Below are positions 4,482-22,391 of a stretch of 32,699 bases of DNA, in pieces. This DNA comes from a virus. A program made the position numbers and the translations under genes. The stretch spans positions 1 through 32,699 of IMG/VR virus record IMGVR_UViG_3300034682_000197. One strand, 5' to 3'. The notes below the pieces were generated by a model. It ran no database searches. It saw only the letters and a program-made list of their open reading frames with translations, and was not told the DNA's origin. The first letter of the stretch is position 1. Every line of letters begins with the position of its first letter.

Positions 4482-5816
4482 ATGGCCACCGATCAAGAAC
4501 GCCAGCAACTGATTAACCAGATTCCAACCGAGCAGGGCCGTGCAGCACCGGCTGCGAAGCGGCTGGGCAGCTTGAGCACCTCGGAAGTCGGGCGCAACCT
4601 GGCCAACACCGCCATGGCCTTGCCCGCTGTTGGGGGCGCAGTGCGTGCGGCTGCGGCAGCGCCGGCGGTGTCCCGCCTGGTGGGTGCCGGCATGACCGGT
4701 GCGGGCAGCGTGGCTGGGGCTGCCAAGGCTGCTGCCCCTTACATCACCCCAGGCGCGGGCCTGGCTGCGGTGTCTGCTGCATCGGAAGCGGAGCGCCCAG
4801 CAACCGCGCAGCGCCTGGCCACCTACCAGCCCCAGGGCACGCCGCCCCAGCAGCCGGCAGTCGCATCACCGGTGCCGGCACAAACCGCCGCCGCGGCAAT
4901 CCCGAACGCCCAGACGGGCCAGATCGAGTTTGATGCGGCCACCAACACCTACTCCGGCAAGGACGTGGGCGCCGGGGCGCAGATCGTGAATGGGCGTGGC
5001 GGTGGTGCAGTCAGTGCACAGAACCAGCAAGCCGCTGATCGGCTGGCCCAAATGCAGCAGTTTGAGAGCGTGGCGCGCGTGGCCGGCAGCGACAACGTGC
5101 CGCAAAGCCCCCAGCGGGGCATGCTGGCCGTGCCGACGGCCACCCACAGCGGCAACGATTGGCGAGCGCGCGAGACCCTGCGCCGCCTGAAGATGGATGC
5201 CGACAGCCTGATCCACAAGGATCCACGGGCGCGCCGGCAGGCCCAGGCGGCTTATCAGCAGGCGGCAACAGCCGATGTGGCGGCCATGACCGGTGGGCAG
5301 ACCAACATCGACACCAAGGCGATGGAGCTGGATGCTGGACTGCAGCGTGAAGGCATGCAGCAGTCGGGAGCGAACCAGCGCGCCGCAATTGGTGAGCGCA
5401 CGGCTGCGCAGCGGCTGGCCATCGACGGCCGGCGCTTGAACCTGGAGGAGACGACGCAGGGCTTTCAAAACCGCCAGGCCCAGCGGGTGGAGCAGGCCCA
5501 AGCAGCGTATCTGGATGCCGAGACCGACGATGCGCGCAACGCGGCGCAAAAGCGGCTTGCCACGCTGACCGGGCGCACCGATGCTGCGGACTGGGGCGTG
5601 CAGGTGACGCCGACCACCAAGAACGTGGATGGCTCCACCACCCAGGGCAGTGTGATCCGCTACAACAAGCGGACCGGAGAGGTGCAGGAAGTCGGTTCAG
5701 GCACCAAGGCACCAGCAGCACCAGCGAATGCTGCAGAGCGTGTCGTGGGGCAGCTGTACACGGCGCCCAACGGTCAGTCAGTGCGCTGGACCAAGGAAGG
5801 ATGGCAGTCCAGTTGA
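4482..5816 (+). CDS. probable internal virion / DNA-ejection protein, 444 aa
   Basis: This Ala- and Gln-rich protein lies between the adaptor gene and the giant polyvalent gene, where podophages often carry internal virion proteins. Residues 30-110 form a hydrophobic, small-residue stretch (ANTAMALPAVGGAVRAAAAAPAV..., GAGSVAGAAKAAAPYITPGA) that could be amphipathic or membrane-active. The middle (about 210-370) is strongly helical (RETLRRLKMDADSL, NLEETTQGFQNRQAQRVEQAQ). The end is a small beta segment (VVGQLYTAPNGQSVRWTKEGWQSS). No enzyme motif was seen. The ejection role is inferred from position and composition. A hairpin covers its translation start. Confidence 0.55.
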   Translation: MATDQERQQLINQIPTEQGRAAPAAKRLGSLSTSEVGRNLANTAMALPAVGGAVRAAAAAPAVSRLVGAGMTGAGSVAGAAKAAAPYITPGAGLAAVSAASEAERPATAQRLATYQPQGTPPQQPAVASPVPAQTAAAAIPNAQTGQIEFDAATNTYSGKDVGAGAQIVNGRGGGAVSAQNQQAADRLAQMQQFESVARVAGSDNVPQSPQRGMLAVPTATHSGNDWRARETLRRLKMDADSLIHKDPRARRQAQAAYQQAATADVAAMTGGQTNIDTKAMELDAGLQREGMQQSGANQRAAIGERTAAQRLAIDGRRLNLEETTQGFQNRQAQRVEQAQAAYLDAETDDARNAAQKRLATLTGRTDAADWGVQVTPTTKNVDGSTTQGSVIRYNKRTGEVQEVGSGTKAPAAPANAAERVVGQLYTAPNGQSVRWTKEGWQSS

Positions 5817-5832
5817 TCCGGTTCCGAACTGG

Positions 5833-5844
5833 CCCCGGCTAGGA
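5833..5844 (+). repeat. recurring intergenic motif, copy 2 (CCCCGGCTAGGA)
   Basis: This lies in the 64-nt gap between the 4482 gene and the giant gene and matches 11 of 12 bases of the recurring motif. Its CCCCG (5833-5837) can pair with CGGGG (5876-5880), which abuts the ATG at 5881, so it could also control access to the start codon. Confidence 0.5.
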
Positions 5845-5880
5845 ATAGACCCAAAACACCGTCTCCGCGAACCTGCGGGG

Positions 5881-8800
5881 ATGGCACAAGACACTCAGCT
5901 GGAGAGCGGCGCAACTCCATCCAAACCGCGCATTTACTCGGACGCTGAACTGGGCTTCGGCACCAACAGCACCACTGCAGCATCCTCCAGCGCGCCCAAG
6001 GTCTACACCGATGCTGAGCTGGGCTTTGCCCCCCAGGCACCGAGCCTTGGGCGCTCGGTGAGCGACTCAGCGATTGCACTGGGCACTGGGGTGGCCCAGG
6101 GCGTCAAGATGGTGTCGGACGCCTTCGGGGCCAACAACGCGGTGTCGCGCCTGATGGGCAAGGGGATCCAGGCGGCCGAAGGCCTGGAGTCCGACTATCG
6201 CAAGGCAGAAAAGCAAGAGCGCGCCCGCAAGATCAAGGCCGCCGAGGATTCCGGCAGCACCTGGGAAGAGGTGAAGGCCTATGCCGGCAGCATGGTTGAT
6301 GCACCGCTGGACACGACGCTGAATGCCGTGGGCTCGGTGGTGCCTACCCTGGCCGCGGCTGCACTGACGGGTGGCGGCAGTGCGGCTGCCCAACTGGCCG
6401 CGCGCGCTGCACCGGTGGCGATAGGTGCGGTCCAGGGGGCCGGGGCGGTCAAGGGTGGCATTTATGACGCGGTGGAGCAGCGGCACTTGGAGGCCGGCGC
6501 CACGCCCGAGCAGGCCGCCGAGCGCGCCGGGGCGGCTCAGGCCTATACCGGCGACAACCTGGGCGGCATCGCCGCCGGCGCCGGGCTGGGCATGCTGGCG
6601 GGATCGACCGGGGCCGAGGCCGCGGTGCGCCGCCTGGCCCGCGTGGGTGCGGCCAAGCAGGCCGCTGACGCATCGGCCGTGGGGATCGCGAAGGGCGCGG
6701 CGGTGGGCGCTGCCAAAGAAGCGCCGATGGAGGCCGTGCAGGGTGGCCAGGAGCGACTGGCCGCCAACCTGGCAGAGCAAGGCGAAGGGTTCGACACACC
6801 GACGATGCGCGGTGTCTTGGGCCAGGCCGCGCTGGAAGGCATGGCCGCCGCGCCTCTGGGGGGCGGCTTGGGTGCTGTGGAGGCCAGCGGCCGCGCAGGG
6901 CGTACCGATCCTGCCGCTGCACGGCAGAACGCCGAGGCGGCAGCGCAGGATGCCCAGGCCAAGACCGATGCCAAGCTGGCGGACGCCACGATGGTGGCCG
7001 ATGCCCAGCTGCAGGCCCAGCAGCGCGCCCAGGAGTTGGCCGAGCAGGAGGCGGGCACACTGGACGTGCCCCAGACCACGCCGCCGGATGGTGCTGCAGC
7101 CCTGCGTGCCCAGCAGGAAGCCGCGGCAGCCGCGCGCCAGCAGGCGCTGGAGGCCAGCCGCGCCGTGCAAGAGCCCGACGACGAAATCCTGCAATCCACC
7201 GGCCAGGCCGAGCCCGTGCGCCCCAGCGAAGCCATGGGCCTGCGTGCAGATGCCGGTGGCCTGGAATCGGTGGCCGCCATGGCTGTGGATGCTGGATTGA
7301 CCGAGCAGCTGCAAGCCCAGGCGGCGGCCCAGCAGCCCGAAGCACAGCAAAAACAAGAGCAATCAGCGCAAGACCAGCAAGGCATCAACGCCGAAACAGG
7401 TGAGGTGTCTGACGCGGCGCGCGAGCAGCAGATCCGCGAGCGCCTGGACTTCCTGGGCCAGCAGGGGCGCGCCCAGGGCTGGTCGGCCGAAGCGGTGGCC
7501 CAGCGCGATGCCTTGCAGCAGGAGCTGGACTTGCTGAGCCCGGGCCAGCGCATCGAGCAGCTGAATGCCCAGGCAGATGCCGCCGCCGCACAGGCCGCCG
7601 ATTGGGCGGGACGCCAGTACAAGCCCAACCCCCAGGAGCTGCCAGAACACGCTGCCCAGGGCGGGCCGGCGGATGTGGGCGAGGCGAACGAGCAGCGCCG
7701 CCTCAAAAAAGTGGTGCAGGCCAAGGGTGAGGAAGCCAGCGCACGCGCCCAGGCCGATGCGCTGCAGGCGCAGGGCAATGCAGCGGCCCAGCTGGCCGCC
7801 AAGCACGACCTGGCAGCCCTGCGCCGCAAGAAAACGGACGAGATGAGCACCGAGGAGCTGCATGCCCTGGCCGCAGACCTGGGCCCCAGGCATGTGCGCG
7901 CCAAGCGGTTGCAAAAAGCGATTGCAGAGCGTGAGGCACAGGCGCAGCCAGCTATCAACCAAGGAGTGAATGACCGTGGCCCTCAAACCGATCAAACCCA
8001 GCAAGCAAGCCCGCAACAGCCGCAAGCAGGCACAGCGCCGGGCCTTGCAATCGACAGCGGCGCGCCAGCAGCTGGAGCGCAAGCAGCCAAACTGATCGCC
8101 CAGGAGGGCAACCAGCGCCGTGAAGCCGAGCAGCAACGCAAGCTGCAGGCCTCCGAGCGCTGGACGCGCATGACCACGGTGGAGCGCCAAGCCGCCGCCG
8201 AGCAGGCCCAGGGCCTGAATGCGGTGGCCAAGAAGAACCTGCACAGCCGCGCCTGGGCCGACATTTCAGAAAAGAACCGCAAGGCGCTGCTGGACGTGGT
8301 GGTGCCCCAGACCGAGGCGGCCAGCGACATGCAGGCCTTCGCGCCGGAAACAGGCACGCTGGGTATCCCGCGCGCCGAGATGCCCCAGGTGCCCACCCAG
8401 TCGCACGGGGGCCTGGTCAAGCACCTGAACGCCCAGGGCATTGCCCACGAAACCACGACGGTGGACGCGACCGCGCTCAAGCCCACCCAGGCGGAATACT
8501 CGCCCAGCAAGGTGGCGCAGGCCAAGCAAGCCACGGGCGGCCGGGCGGTGATCGTGTCCAACGACGGTCACATCATCGACGGGCACCACCAGGCCATGGC
8601 GGCAGCCGAAGACGGCAAGCCCGTGAAGGCCATCGTGCTGGATGCGCCCGTGGAGCAGGCCCTGGAGGCGGTGAAGGCCTCGCCCAGCGTGCAAAAGGAT
8701 GCCAAACCAAGTGAGGCGTCAGGTGCTGCTGAGAACGAAGGGAAATCTGTACGGCCCAATCCACGCAGCTCATCTGTCAAAAAGGCGGAAATTGCTGCCC

Positions 8801-11800
8801 GGGCACGTGCTGACTATTTCACCCCAGGAAATATCGTTAAGGGCTATGGAGGTCATGACCGTGTGGTGTCGTACAACCCACCCGACGAGGAAGGTCGTTG
8901 GAGCGTGACGGTACGCGCGGTGCGCAAGCAAGGCGATACCTGGGTGGACGTGCCGAATGAACGTGAACGCATCCACGCCACGGAGCCGGACGCCGGGGAG
9001 TTGAAGACCGGCCCGGCGGGCCAGGTGGAGGCATCCGCAGAGCAGGTAAGCGAATTCCCCATCAAGGAAGCATCCGCCAGTTATTCAGGAATTTCGCACA
9101 GCGGTGGCCAACGCGCCAAGGCTGACGCCGACGAGTTTGAGCGCTTCATAGCCGCCGAGCGCGATGCAGGCCTGGCCGTGGCCGTCACCGAGGCCCAGAA
9201 AGCTGCAGTGGAGCATGCCGTCGAGGCACTGCGGACCAACTATCTGGCCGCCTACGGGCGCCTGATGGCTGTCCGGGCCGGCACGTACAGCAGCTTTGTG
9301 GCTGGACGCTCCGGGCTCAACGCGAAGCAGGCCGACAAACGCAATGACGCCTTGAGCCGCGCCCAGGAGACGTTTTCGGCATGGCAAAAGGATGCCGCCG
9401 GGAGCGTGCAGCGTGCCGCGCTCGGTGCGCGTACCGACGAGCAAAAGCAGGCTGACCAGCAGGTCAAGGCGCGCGCCGCGGCCGACAAGGCCCAGCGCTT
9501 GGAGGATGCAGACCGCAAATTGATCCGCAAGCTGTTGTCTTGGAAAAAGGGCGGGGAGCCTGTGGTGGTTGGCAAGTCCGCCCAGGTGGCCGGCTTGAAC
9601 TTCGACCGTGACGGCTATCCGTCCAGCGTGAACCTGGTGCCTACAGATGGCACAACCCTGACAGACAACAAGTTCGACGTGGCCTCCTTTTTCCGCCGTC
9701 CTGGTGTCAGCGTGCCCGAGTCCAAGCGCCGTGTCCGCGAGCTGGTGGACGCCGTGCGCGCTGAAGATGCTGCCCAGCCAGCACCTGCAGCACCTGCAGC
9801 ACCTGCAGCACCTGCAGCACCTGCAGCACCTGCAGCACCTGCAGCACCTGCAGACAGCAAGACCCCAATCCTGGATTCCCATGTGGGGCTGATGGACCGC
9901 GTTCGCGCCGGCGAAGCCACGGCAGACCAATTGCGTGAATCCTTTGTGCAGTTGGATGCGCAGCGCGAGGCGATTGCGGCCGAGCTGAACACCATGAACA
10001 AGGACAAGCTGCTGCGCAGCGGTGGCTACTCCTTTGCCATGCGCCACCGCGACAGCAAGAAGCCTGAAATCGTTTCCGCCATGGTGGATGCGGTGCTGGG
10101 CGAGTACAGCCTGGGGCGCCAGTACGGACCCAGTACCTACACGCTGTCGTCGTCGGGCTTGGCGGCCCACGGTAAGGCCAAGGCAGAGGCCCTGCGCGAG
10201 CTGGTGGCCAACCTCACGGATGACGACATCGCCCAGCATGCCCAGGAGCTGGCACAGGCGCGCGCCGAGCTGAAGGCCCGCCGTGAAGCGACCCAGCAGG
10301 CGCTGGACAACCCCAAAACGCTGGCCGACTTCCGGGCTTTCATCAGCCATTGGCGCGAGAAGGGCGACACCAGCGAAGCAGCATTCCTGCGTTTGAACCC
10401 TGATCAGCGCCAGAAATATGATGCGCTGGAAGCGGAAAGCACGCGAGCCACCCGGGAAGAAGCCAAGGCACGGGCACGCCAGCAGAATGTGCGCAGCGCA
10501 GGCAATACCACCGCCGGCGAGGTGATCGCCACCAAGCACACCAAGCACGGGCACGACCTGTTCGTGGTTCAGCTGGCCGAGCGCGTAGATCGTGATGACT
10601 ACGAAACCTTGAACGCCAGCGCCAAGCGCATGGGCGGCAGTTACAGCAGCTACCGCGGCAACGGTGCCGTGCCAGGCTTCCAGTTCCGCACCCGTGAAGC
10701 TGCAGAGGCTTTCCAGAAGCTGGTGGCCGGAGATACCGGCGCGGCCCAGGAAGTGGCCCAGGCCCGCCGCGATGCCTTCGAGGATGACAAGAGCCAAACG
10801 GCCGTGGAGCGGCTGCGCACGATGGCTGATGCCATCGACGCCGATGCGGACGCACAGCTGTCGTTGGAGCGCAAGACGAACACCACCCGCCGCGCGCGCA
10901 TGGCCGCATCGGCCGAGCAGGCTGCACGCAACGGCAAGGCCTTTGCCAGCACCATGCGCAATCTGGCTGCAGCGATTGAGGCGGGAAATGCCCCATTTCT
11001 GGATGGCGTGCGAACAAAGTCCCAGCTGACGCAACTGCAGCAGGCCCTGGGTGCTGCAAAGTCAAAGCAGTTGTTGGAGAAGTACGGCAGCTGGTCCAAG
11101 GCTGAGGAACACAAGGGCGATCCCATGGATGCCCAGACTGTGGACTATGCGGAATTCCCGCGTTTCACCATGTACCGCAGTGACTTGGCCGGCCTTGCCC
11201 GCCAACTACTGGAGGTGGACGGTGGAAAGAAGGCGGGCGCGGCCTTGGCCAAGGTGGCTGACGATGTGAGTGAGGCTTACACCGAATGGGCCAAGGGCAA
11301 TCTGCTGCAGGTGAGCCAGTTTGTCAGTGGCGATGGCCTGGCAGACTTTGCGAACCGCGAAGCCGCGGAGCGCGCCATCAAGCGCAACGGCCTGGTGGGC
11401 AAAGCAGTGGTACTGGCCGTTAAGCGTGGGCAGAACCGCGTGATTCTCTCCCCTGGAGAGGCGATGCAACGCGGTCTTTGGACGGGTGATGGGGACAAGC
11501 GCATCAATCTGTCCATGGACTTCGTGCAAGACCTGGTGAAGCTGGGTAAACGCCGCGGCAGCAAGGCCATCACCATTCCATGGCAGCTGGAAAGTGTGCT
11601 GGAAAAGCGCCTGCGCCTGCAGCGCATGGGGATCCAGACGCCTGCTGAATATCGCAGTGCTCTGCGCGAGCTGGTCAATCTGCGTGAGGATGCCGCGCCG
11701 GCTGATCGCATCAAGGAGATGGAGCGCGCCATGGTGGGGCGCAAGTCCGACGGGCTGGATTTCTTCCCCACGTCGCCAGCAGTGGTGCAGCAGATGCTGG

Positions 11801-14800
11801 ACGCGGCAGAGATTGAGCAGGGCATGGCCGTGCTGGAGCCTTCAGCAGGTATGGGGCACATTGCCGACGCCATCGTGCGCGAACACGATGTTTGGCCCGA
11901 TGTGGTGGAGTTGTCGCCAGAGCGCAAGGAGTTGCTGGAGGCAAAGGGCTATCAACTCGCTGATGTGGACGACTTCACAAAGATGCAGCCGCGCACCTTC
12001 TTCACCTATGGCGATACCTTCCGCGCGCCCGATGGCGTGCAGGGCATCATGCGTGGATCCGGGGGCCTTGGCAGTGAACGGGTTCTGTTGGTCGGTGAGG
12101 ATGGCAGCACACGCGGCTACTACGACCGCAGCGAGTTGACGGGCATCGCCCAAAATGGCGTGTTGAGCGGGTATGACCGCATTGTGATGAATCCGCCGTT
12201 CTCGGATGGCCGTGACATCCAGCACGTGCGCCATGCCTACAGCCTGCTGCGCCCGGGTGGTCGGATCGTGGCCATCATGGGTGAGGGCGCATTCTTCCAG
12301 TCGAACAAGCGCGCCGAGGGCTTCCGCGAATGGCTGGAGAGTGTGGGCGGCACCACTGAAAAACTGCCGGATGGTTCGTTCATGGACCCCAGCCTGCCGG
12401 TCAACACCGGAGTCGCTGCCCGCATGGTGGTGATTGATAAGCCTGGTGATGCTCCCATGTTCCGTCGCAGTGACCCGGATGCTCCAGCTTTCGACGTTCA
12501 GGGTTTTCTGGGTGTGATGAATCAGGGGCGCCCAACATTGTCAGAGCAGGCGCGCTCACAGGCTGTCGAGAAAGTGAAGGGGACGGCCGATGCGATCCGC
12601 AAGGCCTGGGCAAATGGACCGGATGTGGTAGTGGCCTTCGACATGGCAGATCCTGTCATTCCTGCCGCGGTGCGCCAGGCGGATCTGCAGCAGCGCAGCG
12701 GTGGCGCCAGCGGCGCCCCTGAAGGCTTCTACCACCAGGGCAAGGCGTATCTGCTGGCCAGCCAGCTGCAAACGGCCAACGATGCAGCGCGCGTCCTGTT
12801 CCACGAATCATTGGGTCACCATGGCCTGCGAGGCGCGTTTGGCAAGGCGCTGGACGGCATCCTGGACGAGATCGCCATGGTGCGCAAAGCCGATGTGGAC
12901 GCGAAGATCCAGGAGTACGGCCTGCGTGGAGGGAAGGCCCTGGACCGCCGGATCGCGGCCGAGGAAGTGCTTGCCGAGATGGCGCAGAGCCAGCCCCAGA
13001 TCGGGTTTGTGAAGCGCGCGGTGGCGGCCATCCGGGCCTGGCTGCGCGCGAACGTGCCAGGGTTCAACAACCTGAAGGTGTCCGACGCGGAGCTGATCCG
13101 CAATTACATCCTGCCGGCGCGCGCCTGGGTGGAGCGGGGCGGCTTGCCTGCGTTGGCACAGTCAGAAGTCGGGTTCAGCCGCAGTGCGATGAAATCCGTG
13201 GATGCGAATGTGGCGCGCGGCCGGCGTGCGATGCAGAAGGTCTTGCTGGACAAGGCAGACCAGCATCGCGCCATGTTTCGCAACGGATTGGGGTGGGTGG
13301 ACTTTACTTGGGGCGACAGCAAGCGCGGGGTGGCACACATCATCAAGCGCCGGATGGAGTCGGACGGAATGAGTCTGGAGGACGTTCAGCGCATGCTGCT
13401 GGACAAGGTCGTGGAGACCATCGCCGCTGGGGTAGAAGTCAGGCGCGCCGAAAGTGGGCTGGCGACACGTTTGGTACTGGACCACAACGGGAATGAAGCC
13501 GTGTTGGTCAAACGCAAGGGTGCCAATGGCTGGCTGCTGACCGCATATGAAATGGTGCCCGGTGCATCGGCGGGGGGTGCGACCCGACCCTCTGCTACGC
13601 AATCCAGCGCTACACGTTCTCGAGATGAATTGGGCGCGGGCACGCCAACTATTCTGAAGAAGAACAAGGATGTTGGCAAGAAGGACGCAACGCAGGCCCA
13701 AAACGCAAAGCCACTTTGGGAACGCACCGGGCCCAGTGCGCCAACTGTCAAAGACAGCCCTCCTTATCCCAGGAGCCAAAGCGGCGAAGTGACTTTACCG
13801 CCAGCGTCCCAAAATGACAACGACGCGCCGATGTTCAGCCGCTCCAAGCTGGCGGACCTCAAAACCAAAGGTCTGGAGCTGGCCCACAACGCCTTGACCC
13901 ACCCCGGCAAAGTTTCGCTTTGGGACCGTAGCGTAGGCACCATGCGCCACATCGCCCAGCGATACCCGGCCTTCAAGCCGGTGTTTGAGTCGGCCCAACA
14001 GTTCATCGATGACGTGTCCAGCGTGGCCAACGAGGCCGCCCAGATGGCCCCGCGCCTGATTCCCCGGGTGGAGAGCCTGGGCGACCTGGCCAAGAAGCCG
14101 ATTTCTGTGGCGGACAACCAGGCGATTGGCAAGGCGCTGTTTGCCGGCACCCTGGACTGGGGGCGCGACCAGCACGGCAAGGCCATGCCGATGGAGGCGC
14201 TGCGCACGAAGTACTGGGGCCTGACCACCGAGCAAAAGGCCGAGGTGCTGCTGGCTGCCAAGAAGATCGAGCCCCAGATGCTGGCGGCCTTGCGGGGCAA
14301 GAAGCTGGAGCAGTTCGACACCCTGATCAACAACAAGTTTGAGAGCACGATTCTCAAAGCGGGTGCGGCGTTCAACCACAAAGAGCTGAAAGAGTTCTTC
14401 GGGCTCAATGACCAGCAGATCAGCCTGTACGACGAAGCCCGCGCGACCGTGGACAAGTCGCTGGACATCACCGCCCGCGCGGAGATGCTGCGCACGCTGG
14501 GCCGGGACTGGGACGGGATGCGAGAGATCGTGATGGACGCGCCCACGCTGACCGAGGCCTGGCAGTTGCTGGACGACGAGCTGGAGCAGCGCGCCAAGCA
14601 GCACCCGGACACGCGCGATCGGCAGGCCACGCTGATGCAGCAGCTGTCCACCACCGTGGCCAAGGCCAAGGAGCTGATGGACCATGGCTACATGCCGCTG
14701 CAGCGGTTTGGCAAGTACACGGTGGATGTGGTGGATGCGGCCGGCGAGCGCCTCTACTTCGGCATGTTCGAGAGCAAGGCCGAGAGCCACCGCATGGCCC

Positions 14801-16770
14801 GTGCCATGGAGCGTGAGTACCCGGGCGCGGTCGTGACCCAGGGCACCATCAACGACCAGCAGTTCAAGCTGTTTGCCGGCATCACGCCGGAGACGGCCGA
14901 GCTGTTTGGCACGATGCTTGGCCTGGACGCCGAGGGCAACCAGGCCAAGGACCAGGCGTTCCAGGAGTACCTGAAGCTGGCCAAGAACAACCACAGCGCC
15001 ATGAAGCGGCTGATCCACCGCAAGGGGATTGCTGGCTACAGCGAGGACGTGGGCCGGGTGCTGGCCAGCTTTGTCTACTCCAACGCGCGCGCCGCGGCCA
15101 CGGGGCTGAACGCCGGCAAGATGGAGGCGGCCATTAACACCCTGAACACCGAGCACAAGGATCAGGGCGAGCTGGGCGAGATTGCGGCCAAGCTGCGCAG
15201 CTACATCCAGGATCCGCAGGAAGAGGGCCAGGTCATCCGGGGCATGCTGTTTGCCCAGTACCTGGGCGGCTCCATCGCTTCGGCCATGGTCAACATGACC
15301 CAGCCGTTTGCGGTGACCATGCCCTGGCTGAGCCAGTACGGCGGCATGGCAAAGGCCGGGCGCTTCATGGTCGGGGCTTTGCAGGACATGAGCAAGAGCG
15401 CCATGGACAAGGGGTTCCGGTACGCGCCGGATCTGGCCCATGCCCTGAAGATGGCCGAGGACGACGGCGTGGTCTCGCCCCAGGAAATCCACCAACTGAT
15501 GGCCCAGGCGCGCGGCGCGGGCGGTCTGCGCAGCGGCGACGGCACCAAGCTGGGTGATGCGCGCGCCAAGGCCTCCAACCTGTGGGAAAAGGGCAAGGTG
15601 GCCTGGGGCCAGCCCTTCGCGCTGGCCGAGCAGTTCAACCGCCGCAGCACCTTCATTGCTGCCTACCGGCTGGCCAAGGACCAGGGCATGGACAACCCGG
15701 CGCAGTTTGCGCGGGATGCCGTGGTGGAAACGCAGTTCCTCTATACCAAGGCCAACAAGCCCCAGTGGGCGCGCGGCGCCATCGGCGGGACCTTGTTCAC
15801 CTTCAAGACCTATTCCGTCAGCTTCCTGGAGCTGATGCAGCGCACCTGGAATGCCGGCAAGCCTGGCAGCCCTGAGCGCGCCGCAGGCCGGCGGGCCGTG
15901 GGCTGGGCCATGTTGATGCTGATGCTCATGGGCGGCGCCGGTGGTCTGCCCTTTGTGGAGGATCTGGAGGATGTGATCGACGGTGCGGGCCAGGCCATGG
16001 GCTACAACCTCAGCAGCAAGCAGTGGCGCCAGGAGTTCATGGCCGAGTGGCTGGGGCAGGAGCTGGCAGGCTTTCTGGAGCAGGGCCTGTCAGGCCTGCC
16101 GGGCGCGCCCATCGATGTGTCGGGCCGCTTGGGCATGGGCAACCTGATCCCCGGCACCGGTCTGGCACTCAGCAAGCAAAGCAACGCCCGTGACCTCGTG
16201 GAAATGGTGGGCCCGGCCGGGGATCTGATCAAGCGCGGTTTCACCGGTGCGGGCGATGTGCTCAAGGGCATCGCCACCTTGGACGCCGGCAGCGTGGGGC
16301 GCGGGGCCCTGGAGGTGATGCCGAACGCCGTGCGCAATGCCGTCAAGGGCGCGGACATGGCAGCCAGTGGTATCTACAAGGACACCAAGGGCTACAAGGT
16401 GATCGACACCACCTTGGACGAAGCCGTGTTCAAGATGATCGGCTTTCAGCCGCGCAGCGTGGCCGAGGTGCAGGAGGCCAACAGCTTCATGCTGCGCAGC
16501 AAGTCCTTCTACATTCAGACCTCGAACGAGATCCGCGCCCAGTGGGCCAAGGCCTTGTTTGAGAAGGACGACGCTGCCGTGGCTGCCGCGCGCGCCCGCC
16601 TGGAACGCTGGAACAGCCTGAACCCGGATCAGCCCATCCGCATCAACATGCTGGACGTGTGGAGGCGGGCGCGGGAGATGGGCAAGGACCGCACACAGCG
16701 GATTGCGGAGACGGCGCCGACGGCGATCCGCCAGCAGATGCGGGCGGTGGCGCTAGAGCAGGGGCGGTGA
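5881..16770 (+). CDS. giant PLxRFG polyvalent protein, 3,629 aa
   Basis: The protein is one-third of the window and is probably packaged and injected with the DNA. Visible regions in order: two copies of a Y-S/T-DAELGF motif (about residues 17-49); Ala/Gly hydrophobic segments (about 140-340); long Ala/Gln/Glu helices (to about 820); a ParB-like region with IIDGHHQA (about 838-933); an AAP linker (1301-1324); a class I adenine-type methyltransferase with FFPTSP, LEPSAGMGHIAD (about 1985) and NPPF (2104-2107); HESLGHHG (2308), like a zincin metallopeptidase; a barnase/EndoU/ColicinE5-D/RelE-like (PBECR) region (about 2460-2563); MPLQRFG (2938-2944); and a hydrophobic segment (MLMLMLMGG) near the end. 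ATG 5881 was chosen because upstream codons only shadow the preceding gene. GGGG abuts it without normal spacing. Family assignment is firm; each domain's activity is inferred. Confidence 0.88.
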   Translation: MAQDTQLESGATPSKPRIYSDAELGFGTNSTTAASSSAPKVYTDAELGFAPQAPSLGRSVSDSAIALGTGVAQGVKMVSDAFGANNAVSRLMGKGIQAAEGLESDYRKAEKQERARKIKAAEDSGSTWEEVKAYAGSMVDAPLDTTLNAVGSVVPTLAAAALTGGGSAAAQLAARAAPVAIGAVQGAGAVKGGIYDAVEQRHLEAGATPEQAAERAGAAQAYTGDNLGGIAAGAGLGMLAGSTGAEAAVRRLARVGAAKQAADASAVGIAKGAAVGAAKEAPMEAVQGGQERLAANLAEQGEGFDTPTMRGVLGQAALEGMAAAPLGGGLGAVEASGRAGRTDPAAARQNAEAAAQDAQAKTDAKLADATMVADAQLQAQQRAQELAEQEAGTLDVPQTTPPDGAAALRAQQEAAAAARQQALEASRAVQEPDDEILQSTGQAEPVRPSEAMGLRADAGGLESVAAMAVDAGLTEQLQAQAAAQQPEAQQKQEQSAQDQQGINAETGEVSDAAREQQIRERLDFLGQQGRAQGWSAEAVAQRDALQQELDLLSPGQRIEQLNAQADAAAAQAADWAGRQYKPNPQELPEHAAQGGPADVGEANEQRRLKKVVQAKGEEASARAQADALQAQGNAAAQLAAKHDLAALRRKKTDEMSTEELHALAADLGPRHVRAKRLQKAIAEREAQAQPAINQGVNDRGPQTDQTQQASPQQPQAGTAPGLAIDSGAPAAGAQAAKLIAQEGNQRREAEQQRKLQASERWTRMTTVERQAAAEQAQGLNAVAKKNLHSRAWADISEKNRKALLDVVVPQTEAASDMQAFAPETGTLGIPRAEMPQVPTQSHGGLVKHLNAQGIAHETTTVDATALKPTQAEYSPSKVAQAKQATGGRAVIVSNDGHIIDGHHQAMAAAEDGKPVKAIVLDAPVEQALEAVKASPSVQKDAKPSEASGAAENEGKSVRPNPRSSSVKKAEIAARARADYFTPGNIVKGYGGHDRVVSYNPPDEEGRWSVTVRAVRKQGDTWVDVPNERERIHATEPDAGELKTGPAGQVEASAEQVSEFPIKEASASYSGISHSGGQRAKADADEFERFIAAERDAGLAVAVTEAQKAAVEHAVEALRTNYLAAYGRLMAVRAGTYSSFVAGRSGLNAKQADKRNDALSRAQETFSAWQKDAAGSVQRAALGARTDEQKQADQQVKARAAADKAQRLEDADRKLIRKLLSWKKGGEPVVVGKSAQVAGLNFDRDGYPSSVNLVPTDGTTLTDNKFDVASFFRRPGVSVPESKRRVRELVDAVRAEDAAQPAPAAPAAPAAPAAPAAPAAPAAPADSKTPILDSHVGLMDRVRAGEATADQLRESFVQLDAQREAIAAELNTMNKDKLLRSGGYSFAMRHRDSKKPEIVSAMVDAVLGEYSLGRQYGPSTYTLSSSGLAAHGKAKAEALRELVANLTDDDIAQHAQELAQARAELKARREATQQALDNPKTLADFRAFISHWREKGDTSEAAFLRLNPDQRQKYDALEAESTRATREEAKARARQQNVRSAGNTTAGEVIATKHTKHGHDLFVVQLAERVDRDDYETLNASAKRMGGSYSSYRGNGAVPGFQFRTREAAEAFQKLVAGDTGAAQEVAQARRDAFEDDKSQTAVERLRTMADAIDADADAQLSLERKTNTTRRARMAASAEQAARNGKAFASTMRNLAAAIEAGNAPFLDGVRTKSQLTQLQQALGAAKSKQLLEKYGSWSKAEEHKGDPMDAQTVDYAEFPRFTMYRSDLAGLARQLLEVDGGKKAGAALAKVADDVSEAYTEWAKGNLLQVSQFVSGDGLADFANREAAERAIKRNGLVGKAVVLAVKRGQNRVILSPGEAMQRGLWTGDGDKRINLSMDFVQDLVKLGKRRGSKAITIPWQLESVLEKRLRLQRMGIQTPAEYRSALRELVNLREDAAPADRIKEMERAMVGRKSDGLDFFPTSPAVVQQMLDAAEIEQGMAVLEPSAGMGHIADAIVREHDVWPDVVELSPERKELLEAKGYQLADVDDFTKMQPRTFFTYGDTFRAPDGVQGIMRGSGGLGSERVLLVGEDGSTRGYYDRSELTGIAQNGVLSGYDRIVMNPPFSDGRDIQHVRHAYSLLRPGGRIVAIMGEGAFFQSNKRAEGFREWLESVGGTTEKLPDGSFMDPSLPVNTGVAARMVVIDKPGDAPMFRRSDPDAPAFDVQGFLGVMNQGRPTLSEQARSQAVEKVKGTADAIRKAWANGPDVVVAFDMADPVIPAAVRQADLQQRSGGASGAPEGFYHQGKAYLLASQLQTANDAARVLFHESLGHHGLRGAFGKALDGILDEIAMVRKADVDAKIQEYGLRGGKALDRRIAAEEVLAEMAQSQPQIGFVKRAVAAIRAWLRANVPGFNNLKVSDAELIRNYILPARAWVERGGLPALAQSEVGFSRSAMKSVDANVARGRRAMQKVLLDKADQHRAMFRNGLGWVDFTWGDSKRGVAHIIKRRMESDGMSLEDVQRMLLDKVVETIAAGVEVRRAESGLATRLVLDHNGNEAVLVKRKGANGWLLTAYEMVPGASAGGATRPSATQSSATRSRDELGAGTPTILKKNKDVGKKDATQAQNAKPLWERTGPSAPTVKDSPPYPRSQSGEVTLPPASQNDNDAPMFSRSKLADLKTKGLELAHNALTHPGKVSLWDRSVGTMRHIAQRYPAFKPVFESAQQFIDDVSSVANEAAQMAPRLIPRVESLGDLAKKPISVADNQAIGKALFAGTLDWGRDQHGKAMPMEALRTKYWGLTTEQKAEVLLAAKKIEPQMLAALRGKKLEQFDTLINNKFESTILKAGAAFNHKELKEFFGLNDQQISLYDEARATVDKSLDITARAEMLRTLGRDWDGMREIVMDAPTLTEAWQLLDDELEQRAKQHPDTRDRQATLMQQLSTTVAKAKELMDHGYMPLQRFGKYTVDVVDAAGERLYFGMFESKAESHRMARAMEREYPGAVVTQGTINDQQFKLFAGITPETAELFGTMLGLDAEGNQAKDQAFQEYLKLAKNNHSAMKRLIHRKGIAGYSEDVGRVLASFVYSNARAAATGLNAGKMEAAINTLNTEHKDQGELGEIAAKLRSYIQDPQEEGQVIRGMLFAQYLGGSIASAMVNMTQPFAVTMPWLSQYGGMAKAGRFMVGALQDMSKSAMDKGFRYAPDLAHALKMAEDDGVVSPQEIHQLMAQARGAGGLRSGDGTKLGDARAKASNLWEKGKVAWGQPFALAEQFNRRSTFIAAYRLAKDQGMDNPAQFARDAVVETQFLYTKANKPQWARGAIGGTLFTFKTYSVSFLELMQRTWNAGKPGSPERAAGRRAVGWAMLMLMLMGGAGGLPFVEDLEDVIDGAGQAMGYNLSSKQWRQEFMAEWLGQELAGFLEQGLSGLPGAPIDVSGRLGMGNLIPGTGLALSKQSNARDLVEMVGPAGDLIKRGFTGAGDVLKGIATLDAGSVGRGALEVMPNAVRNAVKGADMAASGIYKDTKGYKVIDTTLDEAVFKMIGFQPRSVAEVQEANSFMLRSKSFYIQTSNEIRAQWAKALFEKDDAAVAAARARLERWNSLNPDQPIRINMLDVWRRAREMGKDRTQRIAETAPTAIRQQMRAVALEQGR
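9781..9852 (+). repeat. eight perfect tandem copies of 9-bp GCACCTGCA
   Basis: This in-frame array encodes Ala-Pro-Ala units that make a rigid linker in the giant protein (residues 1301-1324). The copies are identical, which implies recent slippage. Changes in copy number would keep the frame. Confidence 0.95.
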
Positions 16771-16980: not shown

Positions 16981-17247
16981 ATGAAAAAGTCACGTTTTAC
17001 AGACAGCCAAATCATCGATGCGCTCAAGCGTGCAGAAGCTGGCTTGGCTGTGCCCGAGCTGTGTCGAGAACTTGGCATCAGCGCAGCCACGTTCTACAAG
17101 TGGCGTGCCAAATTCGGCGGCATGGATGCCTCCCTGATGGCCCGCATGAAGGAGCTAGAAGAAGAGAACCGCCGCCTGCGCAAGATGTACATCGAAGAAA
17201 AGCTCAAGGCCGAGGTGGTGGCGCAGGCACTGGCAAAAAAGTGGTGA
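16981..17247 (+). CDS. IS3-family OrfA, 88 aa
   Basis: OrfA provides the DNA-binding part of the transposase. The sequence [20 protein letters not shown] followed by [24 protein letters not shown] is the family's helix-turn-helix. It continues into a leucine-zipper-like helix ([20 protein letters not shown]). ATG 16981 was chosen because AAGGAG precedes it and family members begin with MKKSRF. The gene ends at TGA 17245-17247, just after the slippery A AAA AAG at 17235-17241, where a -1 shift would fuse it to OrfB. Confidence 0.93.
17235..17241 (+). promoter_or_regulatory. -1 programmed frameshift site A AAA AAG
   Basis: The heptamer is in the correct phase of OrfA (GCA AAA AAG TGG TGA), and the -1 frame leads directly into OrfB. 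This is the standard IS3-family arrangement for making the OrfAB transposase. Confidence 0.85.
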
Positions 17248-17267
17248 AGCTATCTCGCAGACGCGAG

Positions 17268-18068
17268 ATGGCAGAACTTGCAGTTGCGCAGCGAGGGCTG
17301 AGCATTCGCTTGGCCTGCCAAGCGTTTCAAATAAGTCAAGCCTGCTACCGGTACAAGGCTCAGCGCTGTATCGAGGACGATGAGATTGCGCAGTGGCTAC
17401 TGCGCCTGACGGACAACAACCGCAATTGGGGCTTTGGTTTGTGCTTCCTGTATTTGCGCAACGTCAGAGGCTTTAAATGGAATCACAAGCGGGTGTATCG
17501 GATTTACAGGGAGTTGGAGCTCAATCTGCGCATACGGCCACGCAAGCGCTTGGACCGAGCCAAGCCTGAACCACTGACAGTGCCTGCGAGCAGAGATGTT
17601 GTGTGGTCAATGGACTTTATGCACGACCAGCTTGAAGATGGCCGCAGCATCCGGTTGCTCAACGTCATTGACGACTTCAACCGTGAAGCACTGGGCATTG
17701 AGGTGGACTTCTCATTGCCCTCGCAACGTGTAATTCGGGTGTTGGAGCAAGTCATGCAATGGCGTGGCAACCCCCAAGTCATTCGCTGCGACAACGGCCC
17801 TGAATACGTCAGTGCAACGCTGCAAAACTGGGCTAGTGCCAAAGGCATCCGGCTGGAATATATCCAGCCTGGCAAGCCTGCACAAAATGCCTATGTCGAA
17901 CGCTTCAATAGGACCGTTCGTTATGAATGGCTGTCGCAGTACCATTGGTGCAATCTTGATGAAGTTCGAGATTACGCCACCCAATGGATGTGGCGATACA
18001 ACCATGAACGTCCAAATATGGCATTGAGCGGCATTACCCCTAAACAGCGGCTTGCCATGGCCGCATAG
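17268..18068 (+). CDS. IS3-family OrfB transposase (DDE), 266 aa standalone
   Basis: OrfB carries the catalytic rve integrase core. The DDE residues appear in [18 protein letters not shown] and NAYVERFNR, with the usual IS3 spacing of about 35 residues between the second D and the E. An N-terminal HTH_21-like region contains [12 protein letters not shown]. The ATG at 17268 is only an internal start. The frame is -1 to OrfA, and slippage at 17235-17241 gives an OrfAB fusion of normal length, which is the active transposase in this family. The gene is intact and stops at 18066-18068, next to the right inverted repeat. Confidence 0.92.
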
Positions 18069-18424: not shown

Positions 18425-19687
18425 ATGAGGTATCACGACACAGGTTCGCGCAGTCCTGCGGAAGCATTGTCTACTTGGCTTCGCGAAGTCCTGACTGATG
18501 AAGTCACCGAGTTTCGTGTTCAGACTGGATATTTCTCGGCGAAGGCGCTTGGACTAGTCTTGCCCGTCATTGAACGGGCCGCCAAGGCAGACCTTGTCAC
18601 CAATGTTCTAGTTGGGTCAAACGATGCGTCCACTGTGAAGACTCACGTGGAAAAGCTTCTGGATGTAATGGGGATACCTCGTACGAACGCCCGCTTGGGT
18701 GTCGTTAGCTTCAAGAGGGGGCTATTCCATCCGAAAGTCTTCCACATTCGCCGGAATGACGACAGTCAAGCCGCCTTCGTTGGTTCGGCGAACCTGACCA
18801 GAGAGGGGCTAGCGCTGAACATCGAGGCCGCTATCTCGCTGGACACCAGAGACGGCGACGACGAAGGAGAAGTTACTAAGATCGCCACAGCAATCGATGA
18901 TTGGTTTGTCTTGCCATTACGGGAAGGAATCACCCTCGTTGACAGCCCCGATGTCATTGAGCAGCTAGTTGCGGATGGGATACTCGCCGAAACACCGCCA
19001 CCGAAGTCAGGTGGTGAGGGAACAGGTACTGGGACCGCTGGACCAAGACTCACGGCACTGATGCCATTGCCGACAATATTAATGTCGGCAGTGGAGATTG
19101 CAGGAACTGCTGACGACGACGATTTCGACCCATCGGTGCCGCCGGCTGCTCCTCCGCCCGTCACAATACTTACTCCGGGACCGGCCGCTACTGCTACAAA
19201 TCCCGCATCTGCGCCCGCGATAACTCAAGGCTTCGCTAACAAGAATGCATTCTGGATTGAGACTGGAGCGCTAACTGGGGGATCAAGGAATCAACTTGAT
19301 CTTTCCATGGTGACAAAGCACTCATTAATAGCAGGCAGCATTTCATTGTTTGGGGTAAACAGTGCTGCAACGACCACTGTAACGTCAGTGATAATCCGTT
19401 ATCAAGGCGTTGACTATACGAATTGCAAAATCAAATTTCCGGTTACCGCTTCCGGCAACTCTAACGGAACTTGGAGACTTCAGCTGAACGGGGTTGCATC
19501 AACAGGGCAAATACTGACGGCCAATTGTCCAAGTTTCGTGCACAAAATTTTAGTCTTTACCCCGCTGGCACAAAACCATTACGAAATTGCCCTGGTCAGC
19601 CCACGCTCAGCACTATCTGTATTTAAAGCGAACAGCACTGTATGGGACTGCAATCGAGGCGGTGGCAGGCATTTCGGCAGAATCTAG
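18425..19687 (+). CDS. PLD-superfamily nuclease, NgoFVII/BfiI-type restriction enzyme candidate, 420 aa
   Basis: Residues 1-190 form a phospholipase-D-like fold with one HxK motif: FHPKVFHI (His102, Lys104) and GSANLT (Gly120 to Asn123). Like BfiI and NgoFVII, which have one motif per chain, it would need to dimerise to make an active site. A Pro/Gly/Thr-rich linker (about 190-265) leads to a separate C-terminal domain (about 265-420) starting with FWIETGALTGGSRNQLDLS and mostly beta. In BfiI/NgoAVII relatives this position holds a B3-like DNA-recognition domain; that equivalence is inferred, not seen. The second half is clearly richer in AT than the phage genes. It faces two methyltransferase genes transcribed towards it. 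Restriction is the likely role; phospholipid hydrolysis is unlikely. Confidence 0.75.
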   Translation: MRYHDTGSRSPAEALSTWLREVLTDEVTEFRVQTGYFSAKALGLVLPVIERAAKADLVTNVLVGSNDASTVKTHVEKLLDVMGIPRTNARLGVVSFKRGLFHPKVFHIRRNDDSQAAFVGSANLTREGLALNIEAAISLDTRDGDDEGEVTKIATAIDDWFVLPLREGITLVDSPDVIEQLVADGILAETPPPKSGGEGTGTGTAGPRLTALMPLPTILMSAVEIAGTADDDDFDPSVPPAAPPPVTILTPGPAATATNPASAPAITQGFANKNAFWIETGALTGGSRNQLDLSMVTKHSLIAGSISLFGVNSAATTTVTSVIIRYQGVDYTNCKIKFPVTASGNSNGTWRLQLNGVASTGQILTANCPSFVHKILVFTPLAQNHYEIALVSPRSALSVFKANSTVWDCNRGGGRHFGRI

Positions 19688-19762
19688 TTAGAACGATTCC
19701 CTTGGTCGAGATCGCTTGGCTCGAAACGGATCTACAAGAAATGCGAAGTAGCTTGGGCTGCT

Positions 19763-20599
19763 CTAGAAACGACTTAGCCATTCCTGGTGTTTCCCTTTCC
19801 GAATTCCGCTAATACCGCCCTTTGCCCCGCCAAATGTGAGCATCACGGCATTGTTACTCAACTGGTTTCCTTCGGAAACGAATAACGGGGCCTGATTTAC
19901 TTCGCGGAAGCGGTTTATGAACGATGTTACATCGAAGCCGAACGCATACCCTGTCGTATTTTGATATGGCGGGTCTAAATACACGACAGCATTACTGGGA
20001 AAGGGATCACTAAGGACTGTCATGATGTTCGTGTTGAGGCAGGTTACTCCTCTCATTCCGTTTACGAGGGCATCGACTCGGCGACGCAGCTCGGTAGGAG
20101 AGGGTTGCATCGGATTGGCAGGGCTGCGGCGTATGCTCGTCGCAGTTGGCTCCCAGTAGTCCCGGAAGCAGGCGTTCGCCCAGCGTTCTCCATTGCGCCA
20201 AATTTGCTTCCCTCCAAAGGAACAAGCCTGAAGCACTGGGTAAAGCTCTACTTCATGGTCACCCACCGGGAGCGCCGACAACGCCGACATGTGAGCCTTA
20301 AAATCGCGTTTATCGAGCGGCAAGCCGGACAAAAACTGATCAAAAGTGTCCATGTTGAACGTGCCGGAGCCAATGGAGGACCAGAAGGCACCCCAAGAGC
20401 TGATGTCGAGCATCCAAATGCGTGATGGGGCGACACCTCTGTTAACCAGTTCGATGGATATCGCGGCAGATCCGCAGCATAGGTCGTAGAACTGTGAGTT
20501 CGGCCCGGGAGCAGCCTCTAGAAGAATGTCGACAATCTGAGCCGCTACGCGCTGTTTGCCGCCCTGATATGCGCAGGGTACGCGCATTCGACTGCTCAT
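19763..20599 (-). CDS. D12-class DNA adenine N6-methyltransferase, 278 aa
   Basis: The protein transfers a methyl group from S-adenosylmethionine to adenine in DNA. Motif X is seen as AYQGGKQRVA (residues 10-19), motif I as FYDLCCGSAAISIEL (37-51) and the catalytic motif IV as DPPY (209-212). The order X-I-IV is that of the alpha class, which includes Dam and M.DpnII. Length is normal and the gene looks intact. Its ATG overlaps the stop of the upstream fused methyltransferase by four bases (ATGA, 20596-20599), so the two are translationally coupled. It may protect the second strand of an asymmetric site or a second site. Recognition sequence is not predictable from what is visible. Confidence 0.88.
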   Translation of the reverse strand: MSSRMRVPCAYQGGKQRVAAQIVDILLEAAPGPNSQFYDLCCGSAAISIELVNRGVAPSRIWMLDISSWGAFWSSIGSGTFNMDTFDQFLSGLPLDKRDFKAHMSALSALPVGDHEVELYPVLQACSFGGKQIWRNGERWANACFRDYWEPTATSIRRSPANPMQPSPTELRRRVDALVNGMRGVTCLNTNIMTVLSDPFPSNAVVYLDPPYQNTTGYAFGFDVTSFINRFREVNQAPLFVSEGNQLSNNAVMLTFGGAKGGISGIRKGKHQEWLSRF

Positions 20600-21843
20600 G
20601 AAGATTTCCTGCGGATCAGTATTCGTGCATAAACACGCCGACCGTTGATGATGCCGACACCACCCCTGTCTTCAGAATGCGGACGATACCCTACCTCTGT
20701 AAGGGTCTTGGAAGATACGTTGGTGCGTGCGTTGCCGTTGGCAAGCATAACGATCTCGAACTGATCCGGGCTGTATTTGTCGAGGAACGTGATCGGCACC
20801 CCCATAACCCCGTCGTAGTCGACAGGAATATTTTGGGTGCGTCCGACATCAATCGCATCGTAGTTTTCGTAACGTGGATATTCGTCCGGAGTGTAGTGGC
20901 TGGTCAGTGCTATAGGCTCGTGCCGCCTGCTGGTGTCCAAGTTGGTAAACCAGCGTACGCCCTTCACTCGAATGAAGCGACGTCCTCTCTCGTCTATACC
21001 GCAGCCGGCGGCGTTTAGCGGGTAGTCATCGGGCACATAAAATTTTCGATCCCCAGAGCGGATGGATTCTCCGTACCAGACTCTATTGTCACGGAAGAGC
21101 GGGAAGATCTCCTTGCATGTTGCTGCGTTCATGTTCCCAAGAATAATGAAATCCTTTTCATGACGCTCTAGCTGGCTGATGTACTCGCGGAAAAGGCTGA
21201 AGGGTGGATTGGTGACCACGATGTCGGCTTCCTTGAGCAAAGCTTCGCACTCGTCTGACCGGAAATCGCCGTCACCAGCGAGATGCACGAGAGCGTTGCC
21301 TTGCATAGCAAACAAGGACTCTAAATCCAGCGAACCGTCTGGCCTCACCAGAGGCTCGTCAGGCACTTCGGTTACTACCGCCTTATAGGCGCCAGTCCCT
21401 CCCTCTAGTGGATATTCCCGTCCTGCCATTGGGGATCCGGCGTAGCAGGTGGATGTAAGTCCCGCCAGCCCTATCTTGTTGAAATGGAGCACAAAAAACC
21501 GGAAGAAAGCTGACTCAAAAGGATCGTCACAGTTACAAAGTATGGTCTTTCCCTTTAGTTGCTCTCTATGCTTAACCATTTCCCTAGTGACATCCTCGTA
21601 CTGCGTATAGAACTCATCTCTCTTGATGATGAACGCACGATTGAGTGTCGCATTTCTGGATTTCGAATGTGGTTTTGGATGTTCTGGCTTTATATCAAAC
21701 GGCATGGTGCCCTCGCGAACCACCGCTTTGAGAAAGGTATTAATTGCGGCGGACATGCCGATGCCAATCTCTTCGAATACCTCGCTGGCGCGTCTTTTGA
21801 CATCTAGGTCAATGCGTATTGTCGTAGTCGGTTTGACTGACAT
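20596..21843 (-). CDS. RelB/DinJ-type RHH domain fused to M.EcoRI-type adenine methyltransferase, 415 aa
   Basis: Residues 6-52 (TTTIRIDLDVKRRASEVFEE, then SAAINTFLKAVVREGTMPFDI) match the ribbon-helix-helix antitoxin pattern of DinJ/RelB. After a short linker, residue 63 onwards resembles M.EcoRI as I recall it: SRNATLNRAF, KRDEFYTQYEDV, TILCNCDDPFESAF (100-113) and catalytic NPPF (212-215). M.EcoRI has 326 residues and no such domain, so the extra N-terminus is a true extension. ATG 21843 was chosen over the upstream ATG at 21891 because the upstream codons lie inside the promoter-like repeats and MSVKPTTTIRID is the natural start of an RHH protein. No RelE-type toxin gene is adjacent. The domain probably binds the operon's operator; an antitoxin function is possible but unsupported. 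Confidence 0.82.
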   Translation of the reverse strand: MSVKPTTTIRIDLDVKRRASEVFEEIGIGMSAAINTFLKAVVREGTMPFDIKPEHPKPHSKSRNATLNRAFIIKRDEFYTQYEDVTREMVKHREQLKGKTILCNCDDPFESAFFRFFVLHFNKIGLAGLTSTCYAGSPMAGREYPLEGGTGAYKAVVTEVPDEPLVRPDGSLDLESLFAMQGNALVHLAGDGDFRSDECEALLKEADIVVTNPPFSLFREYISQLERHEKDFIILGNMNAATCKEIFPLFRDNRVWYGESIRSGDRKFYVPDDYPLNAAGCGIDERGRRFIRVKGVRWFTNLDTSRRHEPIALTSHYTPDEYPRYENYDAIDVGRTQNIPVDYDGVMGVPITFLDKYSPDQFEIVMLANGNARTNVSSKTLTEVGYRPHSEDRGGVGIINGRRVYARILIRRKSS

Positions 21844-21858
21844 ATTTGGCCCCGTGAA

Positions 21859-21900
21859 ATACAATGTAGCACAACTTATTGCGACATACAATGTAGCACA
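21859..21900 (-). promoter_or_regulatory. promoter with duplicated 15-nt operator for the methyltransferase operon
   Basis: ATACAATGTAGCACA occurs exactly at 21859-21873 and 21886-21900, 27 bp apart, and each copy holds the palindrome TACAATGTA. Read on the - strand, the upstream copy supplies TTGTAT as a -35 and, after 17 nt, the downstream copy supplies TACATT as a -10, before ATG 21843. RHH proteins bind short palindromes in tandem, so autorepression by the fused domain is likely. Confidence 0.65.
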
Positions 21901-22181: not shown

Positions 22182-22190
22182 AGGTATATC

Positions 22191-22237
22191 TGGTGGCCGG
22201 GGGCGGAATCGAACCGTCGACACTCGGATTTTCAGTC
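22191..22237 (-). pseudogene. tRNA-Phe(GAA) 3' fragment
   Basis: Read on the - strand, this gives the anticodon loop CTGAAAA with anticodon GAA, a variable region, T-loop GGTTCGATTCC, and an acceptor 3' strand ending GGCCACCA. The D-arm and 5' acceptor are absent upstream. The T-stem has an A-C mismatch and the anticodon stem cannot fully pair, so it is not functional. Such 3' pieces are typical of att sites left by elements that integrate in tRNA genes. Confidence 0.75.
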
Positions 22238-22391
22238 TGCGGATCGGCCACAAGCCGACGTTCCAGTACCTCGGCTAGATTGTCGGCTTTGTCCGAGTAG
22301 TTCGCGTTGGGCTTACGTCCGGTATTGGAGTGGACCGGCCCCATGAATGGCAACAGAAGGGAATTCGTGACTGTCCGCTTCTGGCCGATAG

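Follow-up and report, generated by a model that had tools for sequence, protein, structure and literature searches.

Introduction

Type II restriction-modification systems can be controlled by C proteins, separate proteins of the helix-turn-helix class that first activate the nuclease gene and later repress it. In other systems the methyltransferase represses its own synthesis, as EcoRII, SsoII/Ecl18kI, and ScrFI do through an N-terminal helix-turn-helix (review PMC3874152). Autorepression through a different fold is documented for the antitoxin DinJ, which uses an inverted repeat to repress its own promoter; the R13A substitution in its ribbon-helix-helix (RHH) domain abolishes binding, and the operator of E. 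coli DinJ, two 9-bp half-sites with 2 bp between them, overlaps the −10 element (PMC9592637). For the restriction-modification module of the Psychrobacter plasmid pA3H10, methylation was tested and neither enzyme alone protected DNA, while regulation was not the subject of the study (PMC10457243).

The locus considered here lies in a viral sequence of 32,699 nucleotides, analysed as a whole and called the window below. Its gene M1 joins a RelB/DinJ RHH domain to an EcoRI-family adenine methyltransferase, and on comparative sequence evidence the M1-M2 operon is very probably repressed by the fused protein it encodes, through a RelB/DinJ-type operator. By analogy, M1 would resemble the autorepressing methyltransferases that carry an N-terminal helix-turn-helix, but with a RelB/DinJ domain.

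Results

The Fusion Protein and Its Module

The product of M1 has 415 residues, with the RelB/DinJ part at about residues 6–57 (the Pfam RelB match covers 9–53) and the methyltransferase at ~67–413 (Table 1). The N-terminus belongs to the RelB/DinJ profile TIGR02384 (53.4 bits, cut-off 45.65) and scores 36.3 against a cut-off of 22.4 for PF04221; its sequence matches in the PDB, obtained with phmmer, are DinJ structures only. In the predicted monomer model, helices 13–25 and 30–44 are followed by a low-confidence linker (50–74) and then by the methyltransferase, and the Foldseek list for this model includes DinJ chains, weakly. The arginine of the strand (xRID) in the N-terminal segment is invariant across all fusions and sits in the segment corresponding to the RHH arginine of DinJ. 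Assignment of the remainder to the EcoRI family is given by 423 bits to PF13651 and by an invariant NPPF motif, N212-P213-P214-F215.

Table 1. Coordinates and basis of the genes and operator copies in the window
Feature	Position	Strand	Description	Basis or remark
M1	20596..21843	(-)	RelB/DinJ RHH domain + EcoRI-family adenine methyltransferase	Pfam PF04221, PF13651; NCBIfam TIGR02384; phmmer to DinJ structures
M2	19763..20599	(-)	D12-class adenine methyltransferase	PF02086; start overlaps M1 stop (ATGA)
R	18425..19687	(+), convergent to M1-M2	PLD/NgoFVII-type nuclease	PF13091, PF09565; no operator copy upstream
Proximal operator copy	21859..21873	(-)	TGTGCTACATTGTAT	candidate extended −10 TGCTACATT within
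Distal operator copy	21886..21900	(-)	TGTGCTACATTGTAT	candidate −35 TTGTAT within

M1 matches only positions 5–56 of the 85 in the RelB/DinJ profile, at which point the methyltransferase follows. The toxin-binding C-terminal part of the antitoxins is therefore absent, and the next gene is a second methyltransferase rather than a toxin gene. A role for M1 as the antitoxin of a toxin-antitoxin pair was rejected on both grounds.

M1 and M2 probably form one operon, because the start of M2 overlaps the stop of M1. Both genes are present in 18 of 18 homologous loci, and R is found in all but one of them (L024, where the contig ends). A search for an operator above chance before the R genes gave none. 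It had been proposed that the fused protein does the job of a C protein; that part of the proposal is not supported, and a C-protein model was rejected, since the nuclease gene is convergent, lies outside the M1-M2 operon, and carries no such operator.

The nuclease gene of the window has a history of its own. It shares 24%–33% identity with the R genes of other modules, which are themselves mostly 57%–76% identical to one another, while M1 and M2 show about 75%–90% identity to the closer modules. Past the R stop, at ~19710–19762, lies a short relic of the usual R C-terminus (RLARNGSTRNAK-LGLL). Since R has diverged where M1 and M2 have remained similar, and this relic persists, R of the window seems to have been exchanged. 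An IS-type transposase with an integrase core (17061–18068) lies immediately upstream of the exchanged gene. Upstream of the module, on the minus strand at 22190–22260, is a sequence resembling a tRNA 3′ end and terminating in CCACCA, for which ARAGORN and Rfam made no call; a similar stretch occurs at the same place in L002, and it is possible that the sequence is an integration site. Rfam gave no credible match at the locus. Elsewhere in the window, positions 5728–16770 hold an open frame of 3680 aa with a PBECR1 nuclease-like domain.

A Duplicated Palindrome Precedes M1

The predicted perfect duplication upstream of M1 is exact: two copies of ATACAATGTAGCACA lie 27 bp apart, start to start, both reading TGTGCTACATTGTAT on the gene strand, with cores 28 and 55 bp upstream of the M1 start codon (ATG, 21843). 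No other 15-mer in the window is exactly repeated within 60 bp, and TACAATGTA is restricted to the two copies. The 9-mer palindrome described originally is indeed present, but the element of which it forms part is longer. As read from relatives it is the palindrome TGTGCTACA-W-TGTAGCACA, two 9-bp half-sites separated by 1 bp. Complete forms occur upstream of the fusions L018 (TTTGTGCTACAATGTAGCACAAA) and L029 (AGTGCTACATTGTAGCACAC), and the copies in the window can thus be understood as sites with one perfect half and one degenerate (right) half.

The Operator Follows the Fusion

Relatives of M1 were drawn from viral contigs, plasmids (L018), and genomes, giving 19 fusions including that of the window. 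They come from Proteobacteria, Actinomycetota, and Spirochaetota, together with one MAG labelled Chloroflexi; complete E. coli genomes yielded no near match to the L020 fusion. In a tree of 18 fusions, with L018 left out, they form a single clade (support 100/99). Apparently, one ancestral fusion arose and then spread across phyla.

The core TGCTACAWTGTA, counted as present at a match of at least 10/12, is found 28–70 bp before 17 of the 19 fusion genes. Among 77 EcoRI-type methyltransferases that lack the RelB part, one reaches 10/12 and none reaches 11. The difference corresponds to a Fisher p of about 1e-15, a value uncorrected for relatedness; the fusions are one clade, so the counts are not independent. 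Fusions L030 and L031, the two without this core, are preceded by other palindromes, whose cores resemble TACAATGTA. Upstream of position 3001 in L032, a Kocuria fusion, the same half-sites recur in another arrangement, a 29-bp inverted repeat TGACATACAAT-N7-ATTGTATGTCA.

The main evidence that the operator copies are under selection comes from the seven loci with tandem copies. Mean identity among them is 91% for the distal copy and 100% for the proximal copy, and only 42%–58% for spacers, flanks, and fourfold-degenerate sites. Loss of the repeats upstream of close homologues had been named beforehand as the result that would overturn the original prediction; the comparison did not give that result.

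Across 13 genomes that carry a fusion, TGTGCTACAWTGTA (one mismatch allowed) is nearly confined to the fusion gene. A blind scan of 369 Gammaproteobacterial genomes with the same tolerance found the full palindrome twice, each time immediately ahead of the gene for a stand-alone RelB/DinJ antitoxin. Another four such antitoxin genes (L142, L146, L149, and L159) are preceded at 34–40 bp, an offset close to that in the fusions, by GCTACAWTGTAGC, exact or with one mismatch, and the plasmid antitoxin genes L134 and L136 have related palindromes in front. The exact operator is absent from many other stand-alone RelB/DinJ genes, and none of the four matches to the exact palindrome in viral contigs lies at a gene recognisable as that of an antitoxin or a methyltransferase. 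That the motif tracks the fusion and also stands before stand-alone antitoxins supports its reading as an operator of the RelB/DinJ RHH type. One branch of this antitoxin family thus shares with the fusion both its DNA-binding domain and its operator; the RelB-type RHH assignment made at the outset is upheld by Pfam and NCBIfam scores above their cut-offs.

On a Collinsella plasmid (L168, 1451–4306), a gene for a 65-aa RelB/DinJ-like protein, which shares 57% identity with the N-terminus of the fusion, adjoins a large N-6 DNA methylase gene. It is possible that this pair is an unfused version of the same control. The RelB-like gene has no relatives in viral contigs.

Relation of the Two Copies to a Candidate Promoter

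The hexamers at the two copies, TTGTAT and TACATT, are separated by 17 nt and match the σ70 consensus at 3/6 and 4/6 positions; a TG-extended −10 (TGCTACATT) improves this weak candidate. A consensus promoter scan of the window did not list an M1 promoter built on the two copies. On the opposite strand, the same scan places a promoter-like CTGACA-17-TACAAT (10/12) at 21837–21865, which uses the proximal palindrome and has its −35 in the M1 start codons.

Seven of the 17 core-bearing fusions have two clear copies 26–28 bp apart (the window, L001, L019, L022, L023, L024, and L027), three have a degenerate second copy at 27–28 bp (L025, L028, and L029), and seven have a single recognisable copy. 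With the proximal copy as −10 and the distal copy as −35, distances of 26–28 bp yield spacers of 16–18 nt. In L025 the proximal palindrome has decayed, yet TATATT is kept 17 nt from the distal TTGTAT, which fits the −35/−10 reading. The predicted placement of the copies on the −35 and −10 is thus plausible, and only plausible, because the hexamers are weak and the promoter is missing from the consensus scan: the spacing speaks for it, the weak −35 and the seven single-copy fusions against it.

The same spacing puts the centres of the copies 171–240 degrees apart around the helix, on roughly opposite faces at 27 bp. Direct contact between bound dimers was rejected for this reason, and with it the suggestion that RHH dimers bind the two copies cooperatively by touching each other. 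The spacing therefore looks set by the promoter. Bound dimers may be bridged through their methyltransferase parts.

Discussion

A simple cycle would account for these features. When the module enters a new cell, its promoter would be free, and both methyltransferases would be made fast. As the fused M1 builds up, its RHH dimers, bound at TGTGCTACA-W-TGTA(GCACA) across the promoter, would block RNA polymerase, so that methylation is held at a set level. That the fused protein shuts its own promoter, as first proposed, is very probable, given the 17/19 against 1/77 distribution of the motif and its retention amid sequence drift.

Other explanations can be offered for the palindromes. Their main binding partner might be a stand-alone RelB/DinJ antitoxin already resident in the host, so that host toxin-antitoxin systems control the operon by cross-talk and the fused domain is secondary, and the presence of the same GCTACAWTGTAGC operator at stand-alone genes lends this idea some substance. 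It is nevertheless improbable, as the motif follows the fusion across phyla, is missing from unfused EcoRI-family methyltransferase genes, and hardly occurs elsewhere in fusion-bearing genomes, which argues against the general presence of a resident antitoxin with such an operator.

A slightly less probable explanation dispenses with a protein operator and takes the repeats as conserved promoter elements, either two extended −10-like boxes or a −35/−10 pair. TGnTACATT lies inside each copy, the distance between copies matches a 16–18-nt spacer, and L025 preserves its −10 despite a degenerate proximal copy. Promoter function would not account for the conservation of TGTGC and GTA outside the hexamers or for the near-perfect palindromes of 17–19 bp in L018 and L029, and a motif common to promoters would be expected at other genes of the genome too. 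Hardly credible is a functionless repeat produced by chance or by recent tandem duplication: the two copies in the window are identical, and an exact 15-mer repeat within 60 bp appeared in one of 200 simulated windows, but both copies are kept in orthologous loci whose spacers have diverged, and this conservation contradicts the idea. Autorepression by the fused protein remains the preferred explanation.

More speculatively, the RelB/DinJ RHH domain could be a plug-in regulator that recurs among DNA methyltransferases. Because such domains keep the ordinary antitoxin operator sequence, incoming restriction-modification modules and resident toxin-antitoxin loci could then repress each other; we regard this broader proposal as unlikely. 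The locus itself predicts cross-talk between restriction-modification and toxin-antitoxin systems. What the locus brings together is an antitoxin DNA-binding domain and its operator on a restriction-modification enzyme, by which EcoRI-type enzymes would gain a thermostat for the methyltransferase level, an arrangement of which we found no description in the literature. Among the papers searched, none carries the operator sequence or describes autorepression by an RHH-methyltransferase. The RelB/DinJ domain also accounts for the antitoxin label that an annotation pipeline gives to such a methyltransferase.

The module of plasmid pA3H10 (PMC10457243) has the same three genes, with an M1 that is 81% identical; its operator, TTTGTGCTACAATGTAGCACAAA just before the gene, is a single full palindrome, unlike the arrangement in the window. 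RptR of type I systems (PMC12255303) is likewise a small repressor acting at repeated short palindromes in a restriction-modification promoter, but it is a separately encoded four-helix protein, not an RHH protein, and has a 6-bp TAGCTA site. With the C proteins M1 would have in common the control of restriction-modification by a small dimeric DNA-binding domain at repeated operators; in the M1-M2/R module, however, the operators are found at the methyltransferase operon only. DinJ-YafQ and RelBE autoregulation (PMC9592637) involves the same RHH family and a comparable operator design, whereas in M1 a methyltransferase replaces the toxin-binding C-terminal part and no toxin gene comes after. 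EcoRII, SsoII/Ecl18kI, and ScrFI share with M1 an N-terminal DNA-binding domain and an operator that overlaps the enzyme's own promoter, an overlap that is predicted here. M1 differs from them in that its domain is a RelB/DinJ ribbon-helix-helix with the operator of that family, its enzyme part is an adenine methyltransferase of the EcoRI family, and its nuclease gene is convergent.
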